DNA of 27,076 bases from a virus, in the IMG/VR virus record IMGVR_UViG_3300031227_000339, positions 1 to 27,076 of that record; one strand, given 5' to 3'. Below the pieces are notes generated by a model. That model saw nothing but the letters and a program-made list of their open reading frames with translations, searched no databases and had not been told where the DNA came from. This document shows positions 3,718-27,076 of the stretch, in pieces. Position numbers and translations under genes: made by a program. Position 1 is the stretch's first letter, and each line of letters opens with the position of its first letter.

Positions 3718-4509
3718 CTACTTCACAAATTCAGTTCTGCTGCCTAATGTATCTATCTGATAATGAACGCCTATCATCTCAACGAATGGATCGCTAATAG
3801 GTTCTACTCCTGTACCCGCTATCCTTTTAACTCTTAACTTTAATAATGATCCTACCTTATAATTAGTGCCTGTAATTTCTCCTATATCTATATAGTGGTG
3901 AGTTATATCAGGTTCGTTTGCAGGTATATCTTCCTCGCCACTGAAATTTGCTTCACCAGCCATTTGCTCACCCATGTCACCAATATCATAAAATATCTGG
4001 TACTTTACTTTTCGTGCTGTTGCGTTATTATCTCCATCTGTGATTATATGTACGTGTACATCAATGTCAGTACCTTCTTTCCAGTTATGCAAAATCTCTA
4101 CCGTTGATAAATCTGCATAATCATTCAACCCAAATGTATAAGATTTTAAATTCGAACTATATGTCGACCATGTTGGAGCGTTTGACGCTGGTACTTTTGC
4201 CGCAGCTAACGGTATGTATATATCATTCCAACTCGGTGTTTTTAACCCTCCTGCAATATACCAATTAGTACCGTTGTTTAAAAACAAACACGATTCATCT
4301 TGATATAATACTTTCAATGCTACATCTGACGGATTAGTAGCTGTTACTATTCCTGCATTAATATTTGTTAGTCTATACCATAGACCATCTGATACAGCAG
4401 GCATCTTGTAAGTCTGTGCCGATGTAGAACTACAAAACATATCACCCATCTGCGAAACGGTCAATGTTGCACCTGTTGTTATTTCTTTTACATTCCTTTG
4501 TCTTATCAT
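3718..4509 (-). CDS. tail fibre/receptor-binding type protein with jelly-roll-like C-terminus
   Basis: This 263-residue protein has two parts. Residues 1-90 form a small beta-rich domain ending in CLFLNNGTNWYIAGG, similar in pattern to the last 60 residues of the hub protein two genes upstream. Residues 95-263 match by eye a domain common at the ends of phage virion proteins. Key segments are WNDIYIPLAAAKVP, IDVHVHIITDGDNN, EPDITHHYIDIGEI, LLKLRVKRIAGTG and the end, FVEMIGVHYQIDTLGSR. It probably makes a beta-sandwich exposed at the tail tip. Position after the hub and the beta-propeller and before the lysis cassette supports a role in host recognition. The receptor is unknown. Confidence 0.7.
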   Translation of the reverse strand: MIRQRNVKEITTGATLTVSQMGDMFCSSTSAQTYKMPAVSDGLWYRLTNINAGIVTATNPSDVALKVLYQDESCLFLNNGTNWYIAGGLKTPSWNDIYIPLAAAKVPASNAPTWSTYSSNLKSYTFGLNDYADLSTVEILHNWKEGTDIDVHVHIITDGDNNATARKVKYQIFYDIGDMGEQMAGEANFSGEEDIPANEPDITHHYIDIGEITGTNYKVGSLLKLRVKRIAGTGVEPISDPFVEMIGVHYQIDTLGSRTEFVK

Positions 4510-4519
4510 ATCATATCAC

Positions 4520-5494
4520 CTATCTATCAACAAATTTTAGGAGCTGACCTTTTTCACCCGTACCTGCATATAGAACACCGTTTAGGTCTACCATATCCCA
4601 TATATATCTATTGCCATTTACTTGATCCGCTGCTTGTACCCATGTGTCAACGTCGTTCCATTTAAATAATTTAGCACCCTGTGTATCATTCCAGCCTGTA
4701 CCACCATATAAGCTACCATCAAATTCTATCAATGATTGTATTGAATGATTACCTTCTACCAATGAACCTGCTTTTTGTGTAAAAACTTGCGTTGTTGTTC
4801 CCGGTGTCCATTCCAATAATCTTCCGTCAGAATAAGTACCAATGTACATATTGCTATTATATGCTGCTAAACTCGTAGCCCAACTGGCATCCGTTGTGGT
4901 TGCATCAATAGTCCATGATGCTCCTGTACTATTATGTTCTAATAATTTTGCTCCACCATCACCGCCCCAAGCAGCACAATACAATGTTCCATCATATGAT
5001 ACTAATTCCTCTAAATATTCAGTACTCGTAGTTGTTGAAAACCCATCAGCAACCATAGTCCATTCTGTACTGCCAACATCCCATTTAAACAGCATGCCAT
5101 CAGGGTTTGTACCTCCGTACAAAGAACCACCATGTACACCCATACAACGGACACCCTGTGCAGATAATTGACCTGCTACTGTACTCCATGTCTCGCCTGT
5201 GGTATTCCATTCTAATAATAAGCCTGTTGGAGAAGTGCCTGCATAAATCTTGCTATCAAACTCAATTATATTTATTTCCGGTTGTCCTGCATAAGTACCA
5301 GCCTTTAAAGTCCATGTATCACCGCCGTTCCATTCTAACAACTTACCTGCACTTCTTGTGCCTGCATATATCTTACTATCAAATTCTATCATTTTCCATA
5401 TTTTTGTTTGATCTTCATACTGTGGCAATATAGTCTCCCATGCACCACTAACATAATATCGTTTAATATTTCTAACTCGTTTCCAAACTCCCAT
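4520..5494 (-). CDS. seven-repeat beta-propeller protein, probable tail-tip adhesin
   Basis: After a short basic N-terminus, this 324-residue protein is built from seven repeats of about 40 residues. The repeat core is hydrophobic-FDSKIYAGT-x-GxLLEWN-xxxTW, as in IIEFDSKIYAGTSPTGLLLEW. The last repeat, DMVDLNGVLYAGTGEKGQLL, ends at the C-terminus, and the N-terminal GAWETI strand could close the ring. Seven such four-strand units suggest a seven-bladed beta-propeller. No catalytic motif is seen. Placed between the tail hub and the fibre protein, it is probably a receptor-binding or adhesion protein that may recognise a glycan. The start is clear: GGAGG with a 6-base spacer, next to the hub stop. 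Blades 1 and 2 are also similar as DNA, suggesting recent duplication. Confidence 0.75.
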   Translation of the reverse strand: MGVWKRVRNIKRYYVSGAWETILPQYEDQTKIWKMIEFDSKIYAGTRSAGKLLEWNGGDTWTLKAGTYAGQPEINIIEFDSKIYAGTSPTGLLLEWNTTGETWSTVAGQLSAQGVRCMGVHGGSLYGGTNPDGMLFKWDVGSTEWTMVADGFSTTTSTEYLEELVSYDGTLYCAAWGGDGGAKLLEHNSTGASWTIDATTTDASWATSLAAYNSNMYIGTYSDGRLLEWTPGTTTQVFTQKAGSLVEGNHSIQSLIEFDGSLYGGTGWNDTQGAKLFKWNDVDTWVQAADQVNGNRYIWDMVDLNGVLYAGTGEKGQLLKFVDR

Positions 5495-6943
5495 TTAATG
5501 CCTCCATTCTGTGCCGTCTGTTATCAAGTGGACACCCTCGTTTGGATATAACAATATGCCGCCTGTGCTACCATTTACTGTGCCGATAATACCTATCGTG
5601 CCTGTGCCGTTGTTATATATATCCTTGATAATCCCTGCAATAGATGCAGTATGTAATGTTATATTGAATGTTCCGGATGCTGTTAGAAATTCATTGTCTG
5701 TAGTAACCAAAACAACATCGCCTGTTAATTCGGTTAGATCATATCTGGTCATATCATCGCTATCATCCCACAATGTTTTTGCAGGTATACCGATAGGTGC
5801 TTCATCTTGTGAATACATATCGACTTTGAAAGCATTACTTTCTCTTGTTGCACGAACTAAATCGGTCATAAAGTCCACATCATCAGGCACTTTCTGTGAT
5901 GAAAAATCTGACGGATCTCTTTTGCTTGCTACTATAGTTGATACAAACTCATTAGCGTTTATCTTGTCCAATGTAACTTCTTCAACTAAATAATAGGTCG
6001 TATCATCAATACCGTATTTAGGCAGCTTCAACTTTAACTTTGTTGACGGTTCCCAATCTGTCTGCCTGCTTTTGAATTGGATTCCTTCCGGATAGCCGTA
6101 TTGCTTCAATGCGTTGTTTGCTACCGTTGTCGCATCCGTAGCATTGGTGATATTAGTATCATTTATTATATTGGCATATATACCGGATGAATAAGATGAG
6201 CCACCCTCTAACGCCTGTTGTGTTGCTATCTGTGCTGAACTGTCAATTTCAACCTGTACTGCTAACCCTGTATCTGAATCAGAGCCACCAACTACTATCT
6301 GCCTATTCCGATATTCTGCTATATTCTGTGTAACTGAAAAATCAAAGTAATCATAAAATGTGCCTGTACTCATTATTTCATGTGCTGCATCCGGTGTTGA
6401 TGATTCCTGTGCAAAGTACAAATCCTTACTATCATCAATGTACCATTTGAAGCCTGAGGCATTAGCTAATTCATCATATACATCTTTGATAGATGTTAGC
6501 GGTCTGGCGAATCGCTCATAATATGAACCATTGTCAATAGTACCTGCCCCGATTCCTTCACTTGCACCAACTTCATTTAGTACGCCACTTCGCAAGTTCT
6601 CTACAATAACCCCTGCATAGCTTGTACTGTACGCCATGAGCGACACACGCCTACCAGCTATACTGTTGTAACCATCTGAATAGATGCTTGTTAGGACGTT
6701 CACAGCGTTACCCTTGCCACTGTCATATTGCTGAGTACCAAGGTTTTTTATAATACCACCGAATATTAAATTTAAATCATCATCATAAACTTTCAAGTCC
6801 TGACCTATTCCCGGAACAAAAGAAGATGCAGGAGCAAATAAAGACATTGAACAGGTTCTTCTTTGTTTTGATATTCTTGTTACATTCAGCGTTGCTGCTG
6901 ATAGTGCCGATGTTCTGTCAACTCCTAATACTTCAATCTTCAT
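5495..6943 (-). CDS. tail hub/baseplate-type protein (tape-measure downstream), 482 aa
   Basis: The gene overlaps the tape-measure stop as ATGA and begins with a beta-rich region (MKIEVLGVDRTSALSAATLNV). A region resembling gpD/gp27-like hub proteins follows, with RPLTSIKDVYDELANASGFKWYIDDSKDLYF at about 147-177. Such proteins form the channel below the tape measure and anchor receptor-binding proteins. A middle part, PSTKLKLKLPKYGIDDTTYYLVEEVTLD, is also typical of hub proteins. The last 60 residues (GDVVLVTT...LITDGTEWRH) form a small beta domain like that at the start of the fibre protein 3718-4509. No lysozyme or peptidase domain is seen. The identification rests on position and pattern, not on a catalytic signature. 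Confidence 0.65.
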   Translation of the reverse strand: MKIEVLGVDRTSALSAATLNVTRISKQRRTCSMSLFAPASSFVPGIGQDLKVYDDDLNLIFGGIIKNLGTQQYDSGKGNAVNVLTSIYSDGYNSIAGRRVSLMAYSTSYAGVIVENLRSGVLNEVGASEGIGAGTIDNGSYYERFARPLTSIKDVYDELANASGFKWYIDDSKDLYFAQESSTPDAAHEIMSTGTFYDYFDFSVTQNIAEYRNRQIVVGGSDSDTGLAVQVEIDSSAQIATQQALEGGSSYSSGIYANIINDTNITNATDATTVANNALKQYGYPEGIQFKSRQTDWEPSTKLKLKLPKYGIDDTTYYLVEEVTLDKINANEFVSTIVASKRDPSDFSSQKVPDDVDFMTDLVRATRESNAFKVDMYSQDEAPIGIPAKTLWDDSDDMTRYDLTELTGDVVLVTTDNEFLTASGTFNITLHTASIAGIIKDIYNNGTGTIGIIGTVNGSTGGILLYPNEGVHLITDGTEWRH

Positions 6944-9309
6944 CGTGCTTTACCTACTCCCATTGACTGCCAATATTGATATACACTATTTGATAATTTA
7001 CGAATATCGTTTGTATCAAATACTTTTGTATCATAGAAATTTACTATTAAACCCTGTGAGCCATTACCCATACCTGCTATCATTGGTGTATTAGCTAATG
7101 GACTATTCACAGCACCCATATTTATAGGATTAGCAACTGCATCAATCGCAATACCACCCATCTTACCTGCAGCTTTCTTAACTACATCAATGGATTTTAT
7201 AATACCTTTTGCTAAACCTTCATCAAGATTAACACCGATACCTGCCATTACTGTAGATGGCGACCTTACGCCGAATATAGATTTTATTTTCTTGATAACA
7301 GAACTTGAAAAACCTTTTATCTTATTTGTTATCCATCGTACTTTACTTGATATACCGTTCCATAAACCTGTTATTAAATTGCTACCTGCTGCCTTTAATC
7401 TGGTTTTAAAATCACTGAATTTATCTTTTATTTTCTTAGGTATCTCTTTAACTTTATCGATTAATTTAGTAACAGCTTCACCTACTGTTTTCCGGATATT
7501 CCACCATGCCATGAATATAGTTCCTTTTAATTGCAAGAATGCCTTTTTTGTAGCCCATTTTATTTTTTCCCAAACTGCCACAATTTTGTTTTTAAGTTCC
7601 TCAATAATTGCAGGTATCTTTGCGGGTAATTCTCTAAACCATTTTACCACCTTGTTAATCGCTGGTTTAATTTTTCTCAATGCTTCTAATATTTTCGGAA
7701 ATACTTTTTCTGCTAAGAATGTTAAACCTGCTATAAATACTGGTAATATTGTATCGACTAACCATAACAAAGCATCTATCCATAATAACCATATAGGCAT
7801 CATTATTTCAAGCAGTTCAATTATTATAGGCAGTATTGCTTCAATCAAAGGCATGAATGCCTCTACTAACTTCAGCACAAGATCCATCAATGGCGGTAAA
7901 ATCGCCTCGACTAATTGGAAAAATAATTTAACCAATGGTTCTAATATCGGTATTAACATATCTAATAATTTAACGAACACTGGCATTATCTGTTTAATAA
8001 TAGGTACTAATACATCAATCAAAGGAATTAATACACTATCAACTAAAAATAGGAATATATCAATTAATGGATCAAGTATAGGCATAAATGCATCTAATAA
8101 TTCAAGAAATACAGGAAACAACCTATCAATAATTGTTTTAACTACTGGCATCAACTTATCAATCAATGGCTTTATAAACTCCATTAACGGAGGTACTAAC
8201 TCCATAAATGCATCCATTAATTCTTCTACTATAGGTAATAGTTTTGTACCTATATCAACCAATGCAACATTCAGCTTTTGTTTCATCCTTGCCATACTGT
8301 TGGCAAATGTTTTTGACTGTACTTCATAAGCATTAGATGCCTCACCTGATGCCTCACTCATTGCAAGTGTTTTTTCTGTGAAGTTTTCTGCCTGTGATCC
8401 TGTCAACGCCATGACCGCTGTTCCACCTTCTATACTGCCCCACATACCAGCCAATTTTATTGTATCGCCGTCTACTGTATCACTCAATCCTTTCAATACA
8501 CCTTGTAAACCTAAACTATCTATAGCTGCCTCGCCAGTTTCAAAGCCCATTTTATCAAGTGCCGCTGTCATTTCTTTCGATGGCTTCATTAAACCCTGTA
8601 AAACACCTCTAAACTGTGTTGATACTTCGGCTGTGTTACCTGTTACACCTGTCAATGTTGACATAACACCGAATAATTCTTCTTGACTTACGCTTAATGC
8701 GTCTGCTAACGGTACAACTTTTCCCATAGAGGATGCTAATTCAGGGAAGGTTGTCTGTCCTAATTTAACTGTTAAAAACGCTAAATCTGATGCTTTTTCT
8801 GCAGCTTCTACAGATGTATCACCATAACCTTTTGTAATTCCTGATACTAAATTTAACGAATCAGCCACAGATACATTACCTGCAACTGCGGCTTTTGAAA
8901 CAACCTCTAACAAATCAGCAGTATCTTCGGTATCACCAAATGCTGATATTACTTGGTACGCACCTTCTTGTACTGATTCAGCTGATAATCCTGTCTCTAT
9001 TGAGAGTTTTTTCATAGCATCGCTTATAACTCCCAATCTAAGTGGATCTTTTCCACCTAACAATGTATCAATATTTGCAAGCCCTGTTTCCCATGATTCG
9101 GCTGCCTTTACTGCTTTAGTGCCTACAACTACAGCAAACGTAGCAGCAGCTGCACCTGCAACTAACGCACCCTTACCAACCTTCTTCATGGTCTTAGCTA
9201 ATCCACCAGTCTTTTTATCTATGCCGTCAAGTTGTTTGTCAACGCCGTCTGCACCTTTTAATCCTATAGAGCCAAATAATCTAAATAGTTCAAAGCCGCC
9301 TAATGCCAT
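6940..9309 (-). CDS. tail tape measure protein, TP901 type
   Basis: This is the largest protein of the window, 789 residues. A small N-terminal region precedes an Ala/Gly-rich stretch, GKGALVAGAAAATFAVVVG, at about 46-64. The TP901-type core follows to about residue 330, with SMGKVVPLADALSVSQEELFG at about 200-220. From about 360 to 545 there is a long series of hydrophobic proline-punctuated helical repeats such as LIPLIDVLVPIIKQIMPVF. The C-terminal part has basic helices and the segment IFGVRSPSTVMAGIG typical of these proteins. Tape measure proteins set tail length; at the usual 0.15 nm per residue the tail would be near 120 nm. I prefer ATG 9309 to GTG 9318 because AGGTG then has a normal spacer. 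The start overlaps the zinc-ribbon gene. Confidence 0.93.
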   Translation of the reverse strand: MALGGFELFRLFGSIGLKGADGVDKQLDGIDKKTGGLAKTMKKVGKGALVAGAAAATFAVVVGTKAVKAAESWETGLANIDTLLGGKDPLRLGVISDAMKKLSIETGLSAESVQEGAYQVISAFGDTEDTADLLEVVSKAAVAGNVSVADSLNLVSGITKGYGDTSVEAAEKASDLAFLTVKLGQTTFPELASSMGKVVPLADALSVSQEELFGVMSTLTGVTGNTAEVSTQFRGVLQGLMKPSKEMTAALDKMGFETGEAAIDSLGLQGVLKGLSDTVDGDTIKLAGMWGSIEGGTAVMALTGSQAENFTEKTLAMSEASGEASNAYEVQSKTFANSMARMKQKLNVALVDIGTKLLPIVEELMDAFMELVPPLMEFIKPLIDKLMPVVKTIIDRLFPVFLELLDAFMPILDPLIDIFLFLVDSVLIPLIDVLVPIIKQIMPVFVKLLDMLIPILEPLVKLFFQLVEAILPPLMDLVLKLVEAFMPLIEAILPIIIELLEIMMPIWLLWIDALLWLVDTILPVFIAGLTFLAEKVFPKILEALRKIKPAINKVVKWFRELPAKIPAIIEELKNKIVAVWEKIKWATKKAFLQLKGTIFMAWWNIRKTVGEAVTKLIDKVKEIPKKIKDKFSDFKTRLKAAGSNLITGLWNGISSKVRWITNKIKGFSSSVIKKIKSIFGVRSPSTVMAGIGVNLDEGLAKGIIKSIDVVKKAAGKMGGIAIDAVANPINMGAVNSPLANTPMIAGMGNGSQGLIVNFYDTKVFDTNDIRKLSNSVYQYWQSMGVGKAR

Positions 9310-21693: not shown

Positions 21694-23139
21694 CTATTCT
21701 TCTTCCTCCTGCTCCTCAACCTCTAACGGTGCATCCATATCAATCATACTCTCATTCTGTGCTGCCATCTGTATAATAACCTTGTCGGGATCGTCAATGA
21801 AACTCATTAAACCGTATATTATTTCATCAGGGAATATACCCTTCATTAGCTGTGCTGTCTGTGCTTCGTCAAGTAGGTTCAATGGGAAGTTACGTGTCCA
21901 TATGAAGTTCATATCGAGATAGTCTATATCTGTACCCTTAGCTTTCCATACAGGTGTTAGTAGCTTATATTGGTTTCTCAGGGCTGTGTTAAATTTACGT
22001 TCTGATATAATACATTTACTTTCTAACCCGAACATTTTAAATTTCATTGCAATGCCTGATACATTACTGCCGAATGCTTCATCATCGAAATTTACCGACT
22101 TAGCGAACCTGTATATATTCTTATCTAATCTATCAAGATGGTGTTCGACTACATCGTCATTTAAATCCTTTGTTACAAACTCAATCTTTGAATCGGTGTC
22201 AGGCATGCCAAACGCACCTGTTTTCTTTGCTGCTTCAATAACATCTGCATCGGGAACTATACCGTAAAACGCCATATACGCCAATCTGAACTGCTCTATT
22301 TCCGATGCTACATCAGATAACGCAAAGTCATAATCATCAATCAGCTTATATACCTTATCGCAATCGCCCTGTTCTTCTTCATTGTTTAGAAACTCATATA
22401 ATGGATTGCCGCCAAACATATGAGGTATCTGGAAATTGCCATCTCGCTCATATGGTATGAACAACATTTGAGTGCCTTCGGTATCGTTGATATCTGCCTC
22501 TGTAATATAATATGTTACAAATTTATCATCGTACCACTCAACATAATAAAACTTATTTGTTCCTACTGTAATTTCATAGTACCGCATTGAATACTGTGCT
22601 TCGTTCAATGAGCCGTCATTGATAAAGATACATTCCCATGGTTCGATGTTTTTAACTCGTTCATTGCCCTCTGTATCTATGTATAACAGCCTTGCACCAT
22701 AACCGCATATAGATGCTAACTTCAATGTTTCACCGTCTAAATCATCTGTATCATTTCTAATATTAAAATCGCCTATAACACTATAATCGAGTGCATAACG
22801 CTTTTCGTCAAATATATCTGCTTCATCAGCAGGTGTTATATACTTCTCTTTGCCTAACTGATATATAATAGGGTTACCTACCATATACCCCAGCTTAACA
22901 TCAATAATATCAGTATCAAAAGCGTTATTATCCTGCCTGTTTATCTTTGACTTATCATCAAACGTTCTTGAGAATATAGGAACACCATCAGGATCTTCTG
23001 ATGCCTGATACCTCTTATAGTTCGATATCATCTTATCTTTTTTTGCCTGATGATCCTTTATTAAATCAGATAATACCTCTGACATAATGCTTTCGCCATC
23101 TGTTCTGATTTTCTCTATTATCCATTCCATATTCAGCAT
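21694..23139 (-). CDS. portal protein, SPP1 gp6-like
   Basis: The protein (481 residues from ATG 23139) has the signature of SPP1-like portal proteins. These include SNYKRYQASEDPDGVPIFSRTF, then VKLGYMVGNPIIYQL, later LKLASICGYGARLLYID and ANVSGIAMKFKMFGLESK-type text (here SNVSGIAMKFKMFGLESK) and LRNQYKLLTPVWK. The C-terminus is strongly acidic (EVEEQEEEE). Twelve copies form the portal ring for packaging. GTG 23148 is an alternative start overlapping the previous stop, but AGAGGG stands 8 bases before ATG 23139. It follows the terminase genes and precedes MuF, as in SPP1. Confidence 0.93.
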   Translation of the reverse strand: MLNMEWIIEKIRTDGESIMSEVLSDLIKDHQAKKDKMISNYKRYQASEDPDGVPIFSRTFDDKSKINRQDNNAFDTDIIDVKLGYMVGNPIIYQLGKEKYITPADEADIFDEKRYALDYSVIGDFNIRNDTDDLDGETLKLASICGYGARLLYIDTEGNERVKNIEPWECIFINDGSLNEAQYSMRYYEITVGTNKFYYVEWYDDKFVTYYITEADINDTEGTQMLFIPYERDGNFQIPHMFGGNPLYEFLNNEEEQGDCDKVYKLIDDYDFALSDVASEIEQFRLAYMAFYGIVPDADVIEAAKKTGAFGMPDTDSKIEFVTKDLNDDVVEHHLDRLDKNIYRFAKSVNFDDEAFGSNVSGIAMKFKMFGLESKCIISERKFNTALRNQYKLLTPVWKAKGTDIDYLDMNFIWTRNFPLNLLDEAQTAQLMKGIFPDEIIYGLMSFIDDPDKVIIQMAAQNESMIDMDAPLEVEEQEEEE

Positions 23140-23144
23140 ATCAC

Positions 23145-23384
23145 TCACCCTCTATTTTCAAAACATTTATCGTTATTATCATCTTCATATCTCTGAATCT
23201 CACCATCTATTGTATAATACAGTTGTACGTCGAGTTTAGAACAGGTTTGTTCTGGTGATGTAACTTGAATCGGCTTAAAGTTATAATCAACAGGGTTTTG
23301 TCGTGGTAAAAAGCAATCCCTATAATCTTCCACCCTATGTTTGCAATATGCACATGATTTATCTTTGTAAACATCCTTCAACAT
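23145..23384 (-). CDS. Cys-rich small protein between terminase and portal, 79 aa
   Basis: A small protein with five cysteines: KSCAYCKHRVEDYRDC (11, 14, 24), TCSKL in the middle and CFENRG at the end. The C-x2-C plus two further cysteines could bind zinc. No family is recognised. It lies between large terminase and portal genes and its stop lies just before the portal start, so coupling is likely. Ribosome binding site AAGGGGAG precedes the ATG. A role in packaging regulation is possible, but unproven. Confidence 0.65.
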   Translation of the reverse strand: MLKDVYKDKSCAYCKHRVEDYRDCFLPRQNPVDYNFKPIQVTSPEQTCSKLDVQLYYTIDGEIQRYEDDNNDKCFENRG

Positions 23385-23400
23385 AACTTATTATCTCCCC

Positions 23401-24648
23401 TTACATAAACGCCTTAGCCGCTGTCATTTTCCTGCTTGTCATTTCATCTTCGTATGCGTATCGTAGTGCATCGATCAGGTGATTGAACTTGTCTACCGGA
23501 TCACGCAATACATTACCATCTTTATCTTCTCGCCGTTTATACTGCTGTACTTCGTTTTTGAAGTTCTGGCATGATGTATTGATAATGATGTTCTGGTCAC
23601 GTAACCAATCAACACCGAAATTAACGCTGTCCTTGCCCTTCTTTGCTTTCAAGGCATTCATACCTAACTTACGCAATCGGGCTATACTCTTAGGTTCTGC
23701 ACTATCACAGACAACATACTCTTTACCGAACATCTCTGTACCTTCTCTGTATAAATCCTCGTTAGACATCTCCCTGCCATATGCCTCATCACATATAAAC
23801 AAATCTTTGGTATTGCTGTTATAGTGTGACCGTATTATTGCAGCAGGTTCAGAGAAACCAAAGTCAATGCCGTTCCTGAACTTATCAAAGGATTTCATTT
23901 CTTCTGTCAAGTCTCGCATTACCCAATCTCTGAATATGATATTACCCAATACTCCCCAATTACCGAGTGTATAAACCTCATAGTAATACTTATCTGTTTC
24001 ATCTTCCAACAATGCAATATCGCCTTTATCTAAGAATCTGAGATTGTCCTTATATGTGGTTTTCAAGATACTTACCTTACCATCAGCATATGAGTTCTTG
24101 CTATCATCCCAGCCTTTGAAATATTCGGTAAATATCCAATGGCTTTGTAATATCGGGTTAAAACTCAACATAATACGCTTTGCTACCTTTGCCTTACCTC
24201 TTAACCTTCTCTGTAGCTGTCTGACATCGTTCTGACCGACCTCTGTGGCTTCTTCTATCCATATGTCTGTTAGTACACCCTTGACCGGAGTGATACTCTT
24301 GACCTTCTCTACGTCATCTAAGCCTGCAAATAGAATCTGATAGCCATTATCACATGTTATCTTTAAATCAGATCTATTGACCTTAAAAAACTTAGTTAGA
24401 CCGAATCTGGTGATGGTCTTGCATATCTCATTAAACATACTATTGTGAATAGTCTTTTGAACATTCCTAACACATAAATAATTATGACCGCCTCTTGCCA
24501 TATCTATTATACACCGTTGAGCCATGAACACAGATTTACCTGATGAACTACCACCGTAAAATATCTGGAATGGTGTTTCCGTATTCAAATAATTCAGATA
24601 GCATTTGTTAAAAATTTTACTGTTTATCTGTAGATTAATCACTGACAT
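23401..24648 (-). CDS. terL: terminase large subunit, PBSX/Terminase_3 type
   Basis: This 415-residue protein has all motifs of the packaging motor. The ATPase domain has Walker A YGGSSSGKS (about 31-39), Walker B DIWIEEATE, and coupling motif LSFNPIL. The nuclease domain has GIDFGFSEPAAI with the first aspartate, VCDSAEPKSI with the second, and FNHLIDALRYA near the end. It cuts the concatemer and pumps DNA into the procapsid through the portal. TTG 24657 is an alternative start; ATG 24648 lies inside the end of the upstream gene. Length and order are normal. Confidence 0.95.
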   Translation of the reverse strand: MSVINLQINSKIFNKCYLNYLNTETPFQIFYGGSSSGKSVFMAQRCIIDMARGGHNYLCVRNVQKTIHNSMFNEICKTITRFGLTKFFKVNRSDLKITCDNGYQILFAGLDDVEKVKSITPVKGVLTDIWIEEATEVGQNDVRQLQRRLRGKAKVAKRIMLSFNPILQSHWIFTEYFKGWDDSKNSYADGKVSILKTTYKDNLRFLDKGDIALLEDETDKYYYEVYTLGNWGVLGNIIFRDWVMRDLTEEMKSFDKFRNGIDFGFSEPAAIIRSHYNSNTKDLFICDEAYGREMSNEDLYREGTEMFGKEYVVCDSAEPKSIARLRKLGMNALKAKKGKDSVNFGVDWLRDQNIIINTSCQNFKNEVQQYKRREDKDGNVLRDPVDKFNHLIDALRYAYEDEMTSRKMTAAKAFM

Positions 24649-24961
24649 TATACTCAAGTTCTATTTTTTCTTTAACGGCTTTCCATAGTGAATCACACAA
24701 TTCATAGCAAGACCATGCATGACCCTTATCAAGAGTGTGTGTTCCTTGTGGTATTTCTATTGCTACACGGTAGGCATTACCCATGATGTAGATAGATTCA
24801 AGCCAATCACCCAAGTATTCAATCATTCTTCCGATAGTGAAATAATCTCTACATATTTCGTGTTCATACAAAAATGTTTGTTTTTCTTTATATTTAAAGT
24901 ATTTTGATAATGTTTCTATTTTAACTCCCCTCAACTGCTCAACGGTTATGTATCGTTTCAT
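24635..24961 (-). CDS. hypothetical protein between small and large terminase, 108 aa
   Basis: I do not recognise this protein. It is helical with many aromatic residues, beginning MKRYITVEQLRGVKIETLSKY. It has FTIGRMIEYLGDWLESIYI in the middle and HAWSCYELCDSLWKAVKEK near the end. Its start is 3 bases after the stop of the small terminase gene, with GAGGAG 6 bases before the ATG. Its end overlaps the large terminase start. It may be an accessory packaging protein, but only the position suggests this. Confidence 0.65.
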   Translation of the reverse strand: MKRYITVEQLRGVKIETLSKYFKYKEKQTFLYEHEICRDYFTIGRMIEYLGDWLESIYIMGNAYRVAIEIPQGTHTLDKGHAWSCYELCDSLWKAVKEKIELEYNVSD

Positions 24962-24964
24962 TTC

Positions 24965-25348
24965 CTACTCCTCCGAATCTTCGTCAACTATATCAACATA
25001 TATCGTTTGCTCGCCTATGTTCTCAACTGTTTGTTTATCAGTGTAACCATGACAAGGTTGTTTTAATATAAAGATACTCATAGTACTATTAAGTTCACCT
25101 TTCAGACCACCTTTTTCTAAATATAGCTGTTGTTTCATCAACGCCTTTTTTTTAGTGTCCTCTAACTCTTTGTATTCTTTACATAAATTGTATAATCTAC
25201 TACGTGCTATTCCTTCTCCATCAAAGCATTGTAAACAAAAAGCGTTAATATGTGGGTAGTCTTCCACTTCTACAAATGTTTTAAATTCTTCTATCAATTT
25301 AGCCCTATCGATAGTTATTGGACTACCACCTTTATTTTTGCCTGCCAT
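24965..25348 (-). CDS. terS: terminase small subunit
   Basis: The 127-residue protein has an N-terminal helical DNA-binding part (KLIEEFKTFVEVEDYPHINAFCLQ, then ARSRLYNLCKEYKELED) and a central helix, KKALMKQQLYLEKGGLKGEL. The ending STMSIFILKQPCHGYTDKQTVEN is typical of small terminases of PBSX/SPP1-like phages, where NPTxxIFxLKxxHGxxDK(Q/T) closes the oligomerisation region. It binds the packaging site and brings the large subunit. An acidic tail follows (DIVDEDSEE). Ribosome binding site TAGGTGA precedes the ATG. Confidence 0.87.
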   Translation of the reverse strand: MAGKNKGGSPITIDRAKLIEEFKTFVEVEDYPHINAFCLQCFDGEGIARSRLYNLCKEYKELEDTKKKALMKQQLYLEKGGLKGELNSTMSIFILKQPCHGYTDKQTVENIGEQTIYVDIVDEDSEE

Positions 25349-25409: not shown

Positions 25410-25486
25410 TGCTGATAGAGGGATTCGAACCTTCGCAATCACATTTTTTTATAAAATGGATTATCTTCCAAATAATTTATATCAGC
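25410..25486 (-). tRNA. degenerate tRNA-like element, anticodon uncertain (perhaps UAA)
   Basis: The minus strand folds as a cloverleaf of 77 bases. The acceptor arms GCTGATA and TATCAGC pair fully, with discriminator A and no CCA. A D-arm ATTAT/ATAAT carries a GG-containing loop. An anticodon arm CATTT/AAATG has the loop TATAAAA. A T-arm has the canonical loop TTCGAAT with stem GAAGG/CCCTC, one mismatch. Unusual points are A instead of U at position 33, a 7-base variable region, a 3-base linker after the acceptor and the T-stem mismatch. The loop centre would read TAA, but a leucine tRNA should have a long variable arm. It may be a decayed tRNA, an odd phage tRNA or an attachment-site relic. 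Confidence 0.5.
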
Positions 25487-25508: not shown

Positions 25509-25685
25509 TTACCTTGCCAAATGTTTTATACTATCCATACCCTTTTCAAACTTATCCATATGCCATTTAGCTTTCAATAACGCTCTCAATACAAACATAC
25601 TTGCCGGATTTATGGGTATCAGTATCGGGCTTATCACCTTATCAGTATTAGCTTTTACAGTATAATATATAGTATCTACTTTCAT
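25509..25685 (-). CDS. small ORF after the solute-binding protein, 58 aa
   Basis: A 58-codon frame starts at ATG 25685 with GGGAG 6 bases before it; the GGGAG follows directly on the stop of the solute-binding protein gene. The predicted protein begins MKVDTIYYTVKANTDKVI. It has SPILIPINPASMFVLRALLKA in the middle and a helical basic end, KWHMDKFEKGMDSIKHLAR. I recognise no family, and no clear signal peptide is present. The good ribosome binding site and tight spacing suggest it is translated with the upstream gene. It stops 23 bases before the tRNA-like element. Confidence 0.55.
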   Translation of the reverse strand: MKVDTIYYTVKANTDKVISPILIPINPASMFVLRALLKAKWHMDKFEKGMDSIKHLAR

Positions 25686-25694
25686 GATATCTCC

Positions 25695-27076
25695 CTATTT
25701 GTTATACATATCCACTAATGTTTGAATGCCCATATCCTCAACCTCAATCACGAATGCGTCAAAATTATCCATATGTGTTTTACCGTTTATGAAGTTTGTT
25801 ACATTTTCTGTAATAAAGGTATTTAACGGTGTTGCAATTTCTTTGAATGTTTCGCTGTCTGCCTCGTCAAGTGCTACAGAAGGGATTGAATAGGTATAAA
25901 CATTATCGCCGTATACCTTACCATGTTTAGCCCACAATCTTGCTCCGTCATACCATCTGTCATTATAGTATTCGACATCTGTAAATACTTTCATCCAGTT
26001 ACTATTTTCGCCTACTCCGTATATCTCGGTAATTATATTTTTGAAAGCATCGGTTTTTTGTACGCCCTTCTCAGTGTTACCAAATTCACCTGATGCTAAC
26101 TGTTTAGTGGTGATTCCTTCTTCACCCCAATACAATTTATCATGTGATGCTGCTGTGTCGTACGTCCAGTCTAACATAGCAAGAATATTATCGAGTAACT
26201 CTGTCTTTGCACTCACAACAGAACCAGTGGTACTGAATCTGCTCTTACCTGCCCAGCCGTAAAACTTGCCGTTATACATTGGAGGTACAAATGCTTCAAA
26301 CTGTCCTGATAGTCCATTTTCCTTTAAGCCGTTATTATGTGTTGGAGCGTTCATCATATTATCTACCCAGAACTGACAATCTCCTGCTTTTGCATCTGCG
26401 TACCATTGTGGTTCAGGATATGCCGACCATTCAGGTGTTAATATTCCTTCATCGACTAATTTCTTTAAGAACAATATAGCATCTTTGAAATTCTGTGTTG
26501 CTACCGGATTAACAAATGTTTCTGCATATTGGTCATAGTATGGAAATTCAATCAATGAAGTTCCGAAACTATATGATAACAAGTTTAAATCCAGTATGCC
26601 GTTTCTGTTAGTCCATATTGGTGTGTCTGCCTTATCTTGCATAGCTTTCAGTGTATTATACAGATCGTCAAATGTTTCAAAATTCATCGTATCTGCAAGA
26701 TCGCTTCGGATCACTCCTCCCAAACTTGATGTCGGGTTATAGCTTCTAACCACTGATGCGAAATAGATTTTACCGTCTGGTGATGTAATACCACCTTTGT
26801 ATTCCTCGTATTTGTCTAACCATAATTTATAATGTGGAAGTTTATCTAAGTTATCAGATAATGGAACTAATAAACCTTTTGTACCTATGTCTTTTGCAAG
26901 TGCAAAATCCGGTGTGTATGATTCATGGAATAGATCCTGATTGCCTATGTTTATGATATCTGGTAAGTCTCCCCCTGCTACTGTGATTGATAGCTTATCC
27001 ATGTAAACATCTACAGGTACAAGTATCGGTTCAATAACCATATCTCCTGCATCACCTAACCACTCATATACCTTCA
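25695..27076 (-). CDS. extracellular solute-binding protein of ABC importer (5' end outside window)
   Basis: The frame is open to the end of the window, and 11 further codons upstream of ATG 27041 (KVYEWLGDAGD) fit the same protein, so the start, including any lipoprotein signal, lies beyond. The visible 459 residues match solute-binding lipoproteins of oligosaccharide importers, LplA-like. KLSITVAGGDLPDIINIG is the usual 'LmlasGDlPDii' segment, and LVPLSDNLDKLPHYKLWLD follows. DGKIYFASVVRSYNPTSSLGGVIRSDLAD and, near the end, FNTFITENVTNFINGKTHMDNFDAFVIEVEDMGI-type text (here PLNTFITENVTNFINGK) are also typical. Such proteins carry sugar to a membrane permease; no permease gene is in the window. 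It is either host flank of a prophage or phage cargo. Confidence 0.85.
   Translation of the reverse strand, partial: KVYEWLGDAGDMVIEPILVPVDVYMDKLSITVAGGDLPDIINIGNQDLFHESYTPDFALAKDIGTKGLLVPLSDNLDKLPHYKLWLDKYEEYKGGITSPDGKIYFASVVRSYNPTSSLGGVIRSDLADTMNFETFDDLYNTLKAMQDKADTPIWTNRNGILDLNLLSYSFGTSLIEFPYYDQYAETFVNPVATQNFKDAILFLKKLVDEGILTPEWSAYPEPQWYADAKAGDCQFWVDNMMNAPTHNNGLKENGLSGQFEAFVPPMYNGKFYGWAGKSRFSTTGSVVSAKTELLDNILAMLDWTYDTAASHDKLYWGEEGITTKQLASGEFGNTEKGVQKTDAFKNIITEIYGVGENSNWMKVFTDVEYYNDRWYDGARLWAKHGKVYGDNVYTYSIPSVALDEADSETFKEIATPLNTFITENVTNFINGKTHMDNFDAFVIEVEDMGIQTLVDMYNK

Follow-up and report, generated by a model that had tools for sequence, protein, structure and literature searches.

The window, the whole stretch of DNA analyzed here, spans 27,076 bases and is a complete linear record in IMG/VR (IMGVR_UViG_3300031227_000339). 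Its right end carries a gene for the solute-binding protein (SBP) of an ABC importer, followed on the same strand by the packaging genes of a phage. The features at this end are as follows.

25695..27074, minus strand: solute-binding lipoprotein (SBP) of an ABC importer, AlgQ-type; 5′ end cut by the contig end
25509..25685, minus strand: 58-aa ORF between the SBP gene and terS; gene status unproven
25410..25486, minus strand: tRNA-like element (Rfam RF00005, 33.5 bits versus a gathering score of 29)
24965..25348, minus strand: terminase small subunit (terS); weak GP3_package and phrog_309 matches
23401..24657, minus strand: terminase large subunit (terL); PBSX family, TIGR01547; start set at 24648 for later alignments
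21694..23148, minus strand: portal protein, SPP1 Gp6-like

Read along the minus strand from the right end, the order is SBP, tRNA-like element, terS, an ORF without assignment, terL, and portal. Next come genes for a minor head protein, a scaffold, and a P22-like coat protein and the tail genes with the tape measure, and then an endolysin-like M15 peptidase, RecT, and a DUF3799 nuclease. A perfect TTGACA/TATAAT site lies upstream of the head scaffold gene (~17285-17200, minus strand) and recurs at the same spot in two related records (L002 and L003, listed below). In all three records the site is followed by a similar leader, GCCATTT(T)GG(A/T)GCG, which might be a small regulatory RNA element.

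The SBP frame (25695-27074, minus strand) encodes 459 residues, is free of stops, and is still open at the end of the window. Compared to the 536-residue SBP of L002, it is short of the first ~77 residues, which carry the signal peptide and lipobox. Using phmmer, we matched the window SBP to AlgQ1 and AlgQ2 with E values of 7e-9 to 1e-7; profiles from Pfam, PHROG, and NCBIfam all gave no match. We modeled the L002 homologue, obtaining a pLDDT of 36 when the input consisted of four phage SBPs alone and of 82 when 39 sequences (3 phage, 36 bacterial) were added to give 43. The model matched 5gx8, a chondroitin-disaccharide SBP described as "related to glycosaminoglycans" (Z 29.4, rmsd 3.4, 449 residues aligned), and AlgQ2 (1kwh; Z 28.9, rmsd 3.1, 453 aligned). 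The next-best matches were SBPs that bind HMOs, fructo-oligosaccharides, and N-glycans. MBP-class proteins scored Z 15-18, versus 24-29 for the AlgQ/FusA-class SBPs of ~500 aa. A BFVD search returned no match at E <= 0.001. Identity to the best-matching solved SBPs was at most ~20%. Relative to AlgQ1, the SBP has a 7-residue gap, at AlgQ1 "kdpngngKADE", and the handling of ligand or calcium may therefore differ. Inspection by eye revealed a hydrophobic signal peptide and a Cys at the lipobox position in the SBPs of L002-L005 and L017. We conclude that the gene at 25695-27074 encodes an ABC-importer solute-binding lipoprotein of the AlgQ type. The initial annotation had called an ABC-importer solute-binding protein here, running in the same direction as terS and about 350 bases upstream of it; the AlgQ1/AlgQ2 match and the L002 homologue model bear out the first point, and the gap is 346 bases.

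The two genes had also been described as linked through a small ORF and a tRNA-like element. The latter exceeds the Rfam gathering score and has well-paired acceptor and T arms and a weak anticodon arm; it could be a degenerate tRNA. ARAGORN, run on the window and L002-L007, called no tRNA in any of them. The small ORF is the one at 25509-25685, which is unproven as a gene because a significant family match was absent from Pfam, PHROG, and NCBIfam.

Since the contig ends inside the SBP gene, the window's own permeases are out of view, and we read permeases from relatives. Scanning 2.9 million viral contigs with SBP and permease alignments, using short peptide patterns that can miss relatives, we found seven other related phage records.

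L002 (also G001): 3300035698_001793, 37.5 kb
L003 (also G002): 3300035698_007052, 29.9 kb
L004 (also G003): 3300025736_000095, 33.9 kb
L005: 3300022871_000264
L017: 3300031227_007527; contig ends within the SBP N-terminal region
L006: 3300035698_003744; contig breaks inside the SBP gene
L007: 3300005935_001418; contig breaks inside the SBP gene

Of the source metagenomes, 3300035698, the best sampled, comes from Ace Lake, Antarctica, according to the available part of PMC8542988. A broader permease profile built from phage and bacterial sequences recovered only four records from the viral contigs, none of them new. The remaining source metagenomes are presumably from Ace Lake as well.

All five records that reach beyond the SBP start contain two BPD_transp_1 permease genes directly upstream of the SBP gene (5/5, with L017 contributing the first SBP codons only). 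The order of this cassette is perm1 (AlgM1-like), perm2 (AlgM2-like), and SBP (AlgQ-like lipoprotein), and its reading frames have no internal stops. The perm1 and perm2 genes overlap or abut in L005 and L017, and small ORFs separate them in L002, L003, and L004. Downstream, the cassette is bounded by terS, terL, and portal. Upstream of it, L002 has a DnaB helicase along with small ORFs, L003 and L017 a DNA methylase, L004 Phage_rep_org_N and ERF, and L005 small ORFs and, at a greater distance, a PAPS-reductase-like gene. The initial annotation had offered two readings of the SBP gene, phage cargo or the edge of a prophage, and the phage genes that flank the cassette in the relatives bear out the former. 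Adjacent permeases and host chromosome genes, with an att repeat, had been named as the mark of host flank. Permeases do adjoin the SBP, but beyond them lie phage or phage-typical genes, and neither Phage_integrase (PF00589) nor Resolvase (PF00239) was found in any of the eight records. Given that all eight are linear and possibly incomplete, these phages could still be temperate.

Two further features lie elsewhere in the relatives. L007 contains a Skipping-rope RNA (RF02924, 56.9 bits, gathering score 36.7) at 4102-4179, plus strand, directly after the portal gene; this RNA scored below the gathering score in the window and the other five loci scanned. L002 encodes a 436-aa Kelch-repeat protein (5620-6930 in cassette orientation; PF24681, E 2.7e-31) downstream of the tail genes, which distantly resembles the product of window 4520-5494 (29% identity).

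We also searched the phages collection, where the SBP matched none of 50,697 records (E 1e-3) and perm1 matched 97. Three of the 97 (MT835684.1, MT835985.1, and MT836055.1) were opened. These are phage-labelled, unverified faecal scaffolds, and the ten ORFs scanned from them resemble bacterial chromosome: none was a phage gene, and those with Pfam matches were of bacterial type (histidine kinase, GH95, GH32, PheT, QueA, and others). We suspect the 97 records to be bacterial DNA under a phage label; a further phage lineage among the other 94 is possible.

Both permeases exceed the cut-off for PF00528 (BPD_transp_1). perm1 aligned to AlgM1 (4tqu_M) over 282/292 residues with an E of 1.7e-84, and perm2 to AlgM2 (4tqu_N) over 286/293 residues with an E of 9.3e-49. 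AlgM1 and AlgM2 were the top permease matches, well ahead of MalF/SugB. The EAA-type loop of the permeases, which we take to be the loop on which the ATPase of type I importers docks, aligned with that of AlgM1/AlgM2 and is conserved. Judged by these similarities, the three proteins would make up an AlgQ/AlgM-type (type I) oligosaccharide importer, save for a dedicated ATPase.

An ABC ATPase (PF00005) was found in none of seven records, which may be fragments; the control was positive in 14/14 genomes. The phage loci also have no LSGG[QE] frame. A frame combining Walker A with LSGG occurs in only 3 of the 80 related bacterial loci, indicating that importers of this family are normally encoded without their own ATPase. 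In the available parts of two sources, the multitask ATPase MsmX energizes several ATPase-less sugar importers of B. subtilis (PMC5730181) and multitask ATPases are exchangeable between species (PMC7658222). With no ATPase gene and intact EAA coupling loops, the cassette appears to fit the pattern of an MsmX-dependent importer. No sugar-degrading enzyme lay beside the cassette among the proteins scanned.

Shortly before the SBP start, L002, L003, and L017 contain a perfect sigma-70 consensus, TTGACA-16-TATAAT, together with a common leader, AGGYGCTAAA. No perfect consensus promoter precedes the SBP in L004 or L005. Perfect sites with spacers of 16-18 occur eleven times on both strands of the eight records, and three of these are the sites before SBP. 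A looser count of promoters across the L002 region was not above shuffles.

To place the cassette among bacterial homologues, we searched genome contigs. The window SBP returned nothing, and perm1 returned 381 relatives, of which 80 were kept; our identification of the closest bacterial operon is limited to these loci. In quick trees that included the top-scoring homologues from these 80 bacterial loci, with SH-aLRT as the only support, the phage copies formed a single clade for perm1 (97), perm2 (99), and SBP (100), and an operon of Paenibacillus cymbidii (L020) was sister to this clade in all three. Identity between the phage proteins and those of L020 is 46-56% for the permeases and 32-35% for the SBP. 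Among phage copies it is 61-85% for perm1 and 51-77% for perm2; for the SBP, it is 61-74% among the four complete copies and up to 86% including partial ones. Apparently, the cassette was taken from bacteria long ago, and the trees indicate a single acquisition by the phage clade.

A terL tree built from 81 sequences placed the cassette phages within one supported set of 11 (99). Seven of the 11 show the cassette or the SBP end; in the other four (L106-L109), the upstream sequence is just 0.4-1.6 kb long, too short to judge. No cassette was found in 74 terL relatives, 26 of which extend 5 kb or more upstream of terL. None of the three cassette proteins was detected in any of the 26, in upstream stretches of up to 8 kb. 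Pairwise identities of SBP correlated with those of terL (r 0.89, 20/5040 permutations as high) and portal (r 0.89, 2/5040 permutations as high). Thus, the cassette co-diverged with the terminase and portal.

The neighborhood upstream of the cassette has a different history. In an all-against-all protein comparison, which could miss very short genes, every called gene of L002 between terS and the tape measure (18/18) has a match in one or more of the other records. Between position 8667 and perm1 of the same record, 1/27 called genes matches the window, L003, L004, or L005, and before perm1 in L004, 0/24 called genes match the window, L002, L003, or L005. The cassette genes are the exception to this unshared upstream region. 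Modular exchange is strong upstream, and the head module is conserved. The early and replication regions of L002, L003, L004, and L005 are nearly all different by record and include DnaB; SNF2 with a UvrD-like protein; ERF with Phage_rep_org_N; and PAPS reductase.

With pS at 0.63-0.88 in the cassette genes, synonymous sites are saturated and the ratios of pN to pS rough; these ratios were 0.125-0.397 for SBP, 0.13-0.31 for perm1, and 0.19-0.45 for perm2, compared to 0.15-0.36 for terL and 0.18-0.38 for portal. The cassette genes are under strong purifying selection. Their GC content tracks that of each phage (0.33 versus 0.32 in other genes; 0.40 versus 0.40). Codon use, which had been suggested as a check on the origin of the SBP gene, gave a mildly mixed picture: the share of shuffles as far was 0.00 in L003, where cassette codon use is unusual, and 0.08 in L002, 0.07 in L004, 0.10 in the window, and 1.00 in L005, where it is not clearly so.

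We propose, with a probability of roughly 0.7, that the phage cassette adds a further oligosaccharide importer to the host membrane, driven by a shared MsmX/MalK-type ATPase of the host. In the infected cell, the permease genes would be transcribed by the host polymerase, and the extra promoter would yield more SBP in some members. perm1 and perm2 would form the membrane channel, and the lipid-anchored SBP would capture an oligosaccharide, perhaps an acidic one, outside the cell and hand it to the permease pair. Since the phage records contain no ABC ATPase, we ascribe the energy to the shared host ATPase, which would dock on the permease coupling loops and drive uptake. Host enzymes would then use the imported sugar, and the infected cell would probably gain carbon and energy, to the benefit of the phage. 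The initial annotation had weighed improved sugar uptake against the binding of glycans outside the cell. As the SBP gene is the last of a permease-permease-SBP cassette in the relatives, uptake is favored, and the initial interpretation is, overall, partly supported.

Other functions can be considered for the same genes. It is unlikely that the cassette serves superinfection exclusion or receptor masking, in which the importer or its SBP would occupy the surface or replace a receptor transporter used by other phages. In favor of such a role are the surface location of the lipoprotein, the strong consensus promoter that precedes its gene in three records, and the retention of the cassette in every readable member of the clade, but one surface protein would suffice for it, and both permeases are intact and conserved, including the ATPase-coupling loop. 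Also quite unlikely is a working importer that carries a non-carbohydrate substrate or serves signalling instead of feeding. Saccharide-binding proteins are the best structure and sequence matches of the SBP, which counts against this possibility, despite the low identity (at most ~20%) to the best-matching solved SBPs and the lack of a sugar-degrading enzyme beside the SBP among the scanned proteins. We consider it improbable that the SBP alone functions, as a glycan adhesin or decoy, and that the permeases are relics: in three records a promoter precedes the SBP gene itself, and the SBP is conserved to about the same extent as perm1 and more than perm2, but the permeases are intact in 5/5 records, show pN/pS of 0.13-0.45, and are co-inherited. 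Very improbable is host flank or an assembly chimera, with a bacterial operon at a prophage edge or misjoined to a phage contig, since, even though the window SBP sits at a contig end and all three genes have bacterial homologues, the gene order is identical in records from several metagenomes, phage genes lie on both sides in L002, L003, and L004, the integrase and resolvase families were not found, SBP co-diverges with terL and portal, and cassette GC follows each phage.

The importer reading is consistent with the status of the three genes as phage auxiliary metabolic genes, which best explains a cellular origin, viral genes on both sides, intact frames, and purifying selection; the metabolic effect is predicted. 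More tentatively, and at somewhat less than even odds, the importer may be part of the heritable core of these phages and not dispensable cargo: locked to the packaging and head module, it would outlive the replacement of replication genes and set the sugar diet of the infected cell through the host's shared ATPase, complete but for its motor.

As for the host, the isolate phages nearest in terL infect Marinitoga and Thermoanaerobacterium, and the coat protein is closest to those of an Aeribacillus phage and of a thermophilic phage from the deep sea. The nearest kin of the cassette are in the Bacillota. The endolysin-like M15 peptidase suggests a host with peptidoglycan, and our guess is that the host belongs to the Bacillota.

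If the importer reading is true, phages can specify the carbon source that an infected cell imports, and the multitask ATPases of bacteria are a point at which phages plug into host metabolism. We found no published precedent for a phage-encoded permease-permease-SBP sugar importer in a search that left most subscription journals, preprints, and supplements outside its range. Weak as such evidence of absence is, a clade-wide importer of this kind may be new; phage genes for nutrient uptake are already known.

Among the closest known systems is the alginate importer of Sphingomonas sp. A1, AlgQ1/AlgQ2-AlgM1-AlgM2-AlgS (4tqu, 1kwh), in which AlgS is the ATPase. The cassette has two permeases and an SBP in common with it. 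Unlike that importer, the cassette is phage-borne, has no adjacent ATPase gene, and encodes an SBP with a 7-residue gap at AlgQ1 "kdpngng". The cassette also resembles the MsmX-dependent importers of Bacillota (B. subtilis YtcQ-YtcP-YteP; P. cymbidii L020), which consist of two permeases and an SBP with no ATPase of their own. It differs from L020 in that the phage copies lie in a phage genome and sugar-degrading neighbors have not been found so far. Among viruses, poxviruses, mimiviruses, and chloroviruses carry ABC transporter genes, but these viruses infect eukaryotes and, in the available part of the source, the genes are not SBP-dependent importers of a bacterial virus (PMC6163359). Cyanophage PstS is a phage-encoded ABC-importer SBP that raises nutrient uptake by the host (PMC12713726; PMC10436341). 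The cyanophage pstS cases, in the available parts of these sources, name the SBP only, with host permeases used, whereas the cassette described here adds two permeases and a probable saccharide substrate. Cyanophage pstS supplies one subunit to a host importer; the cassette omits a single subunit, the one that hosts use in common for many importers.
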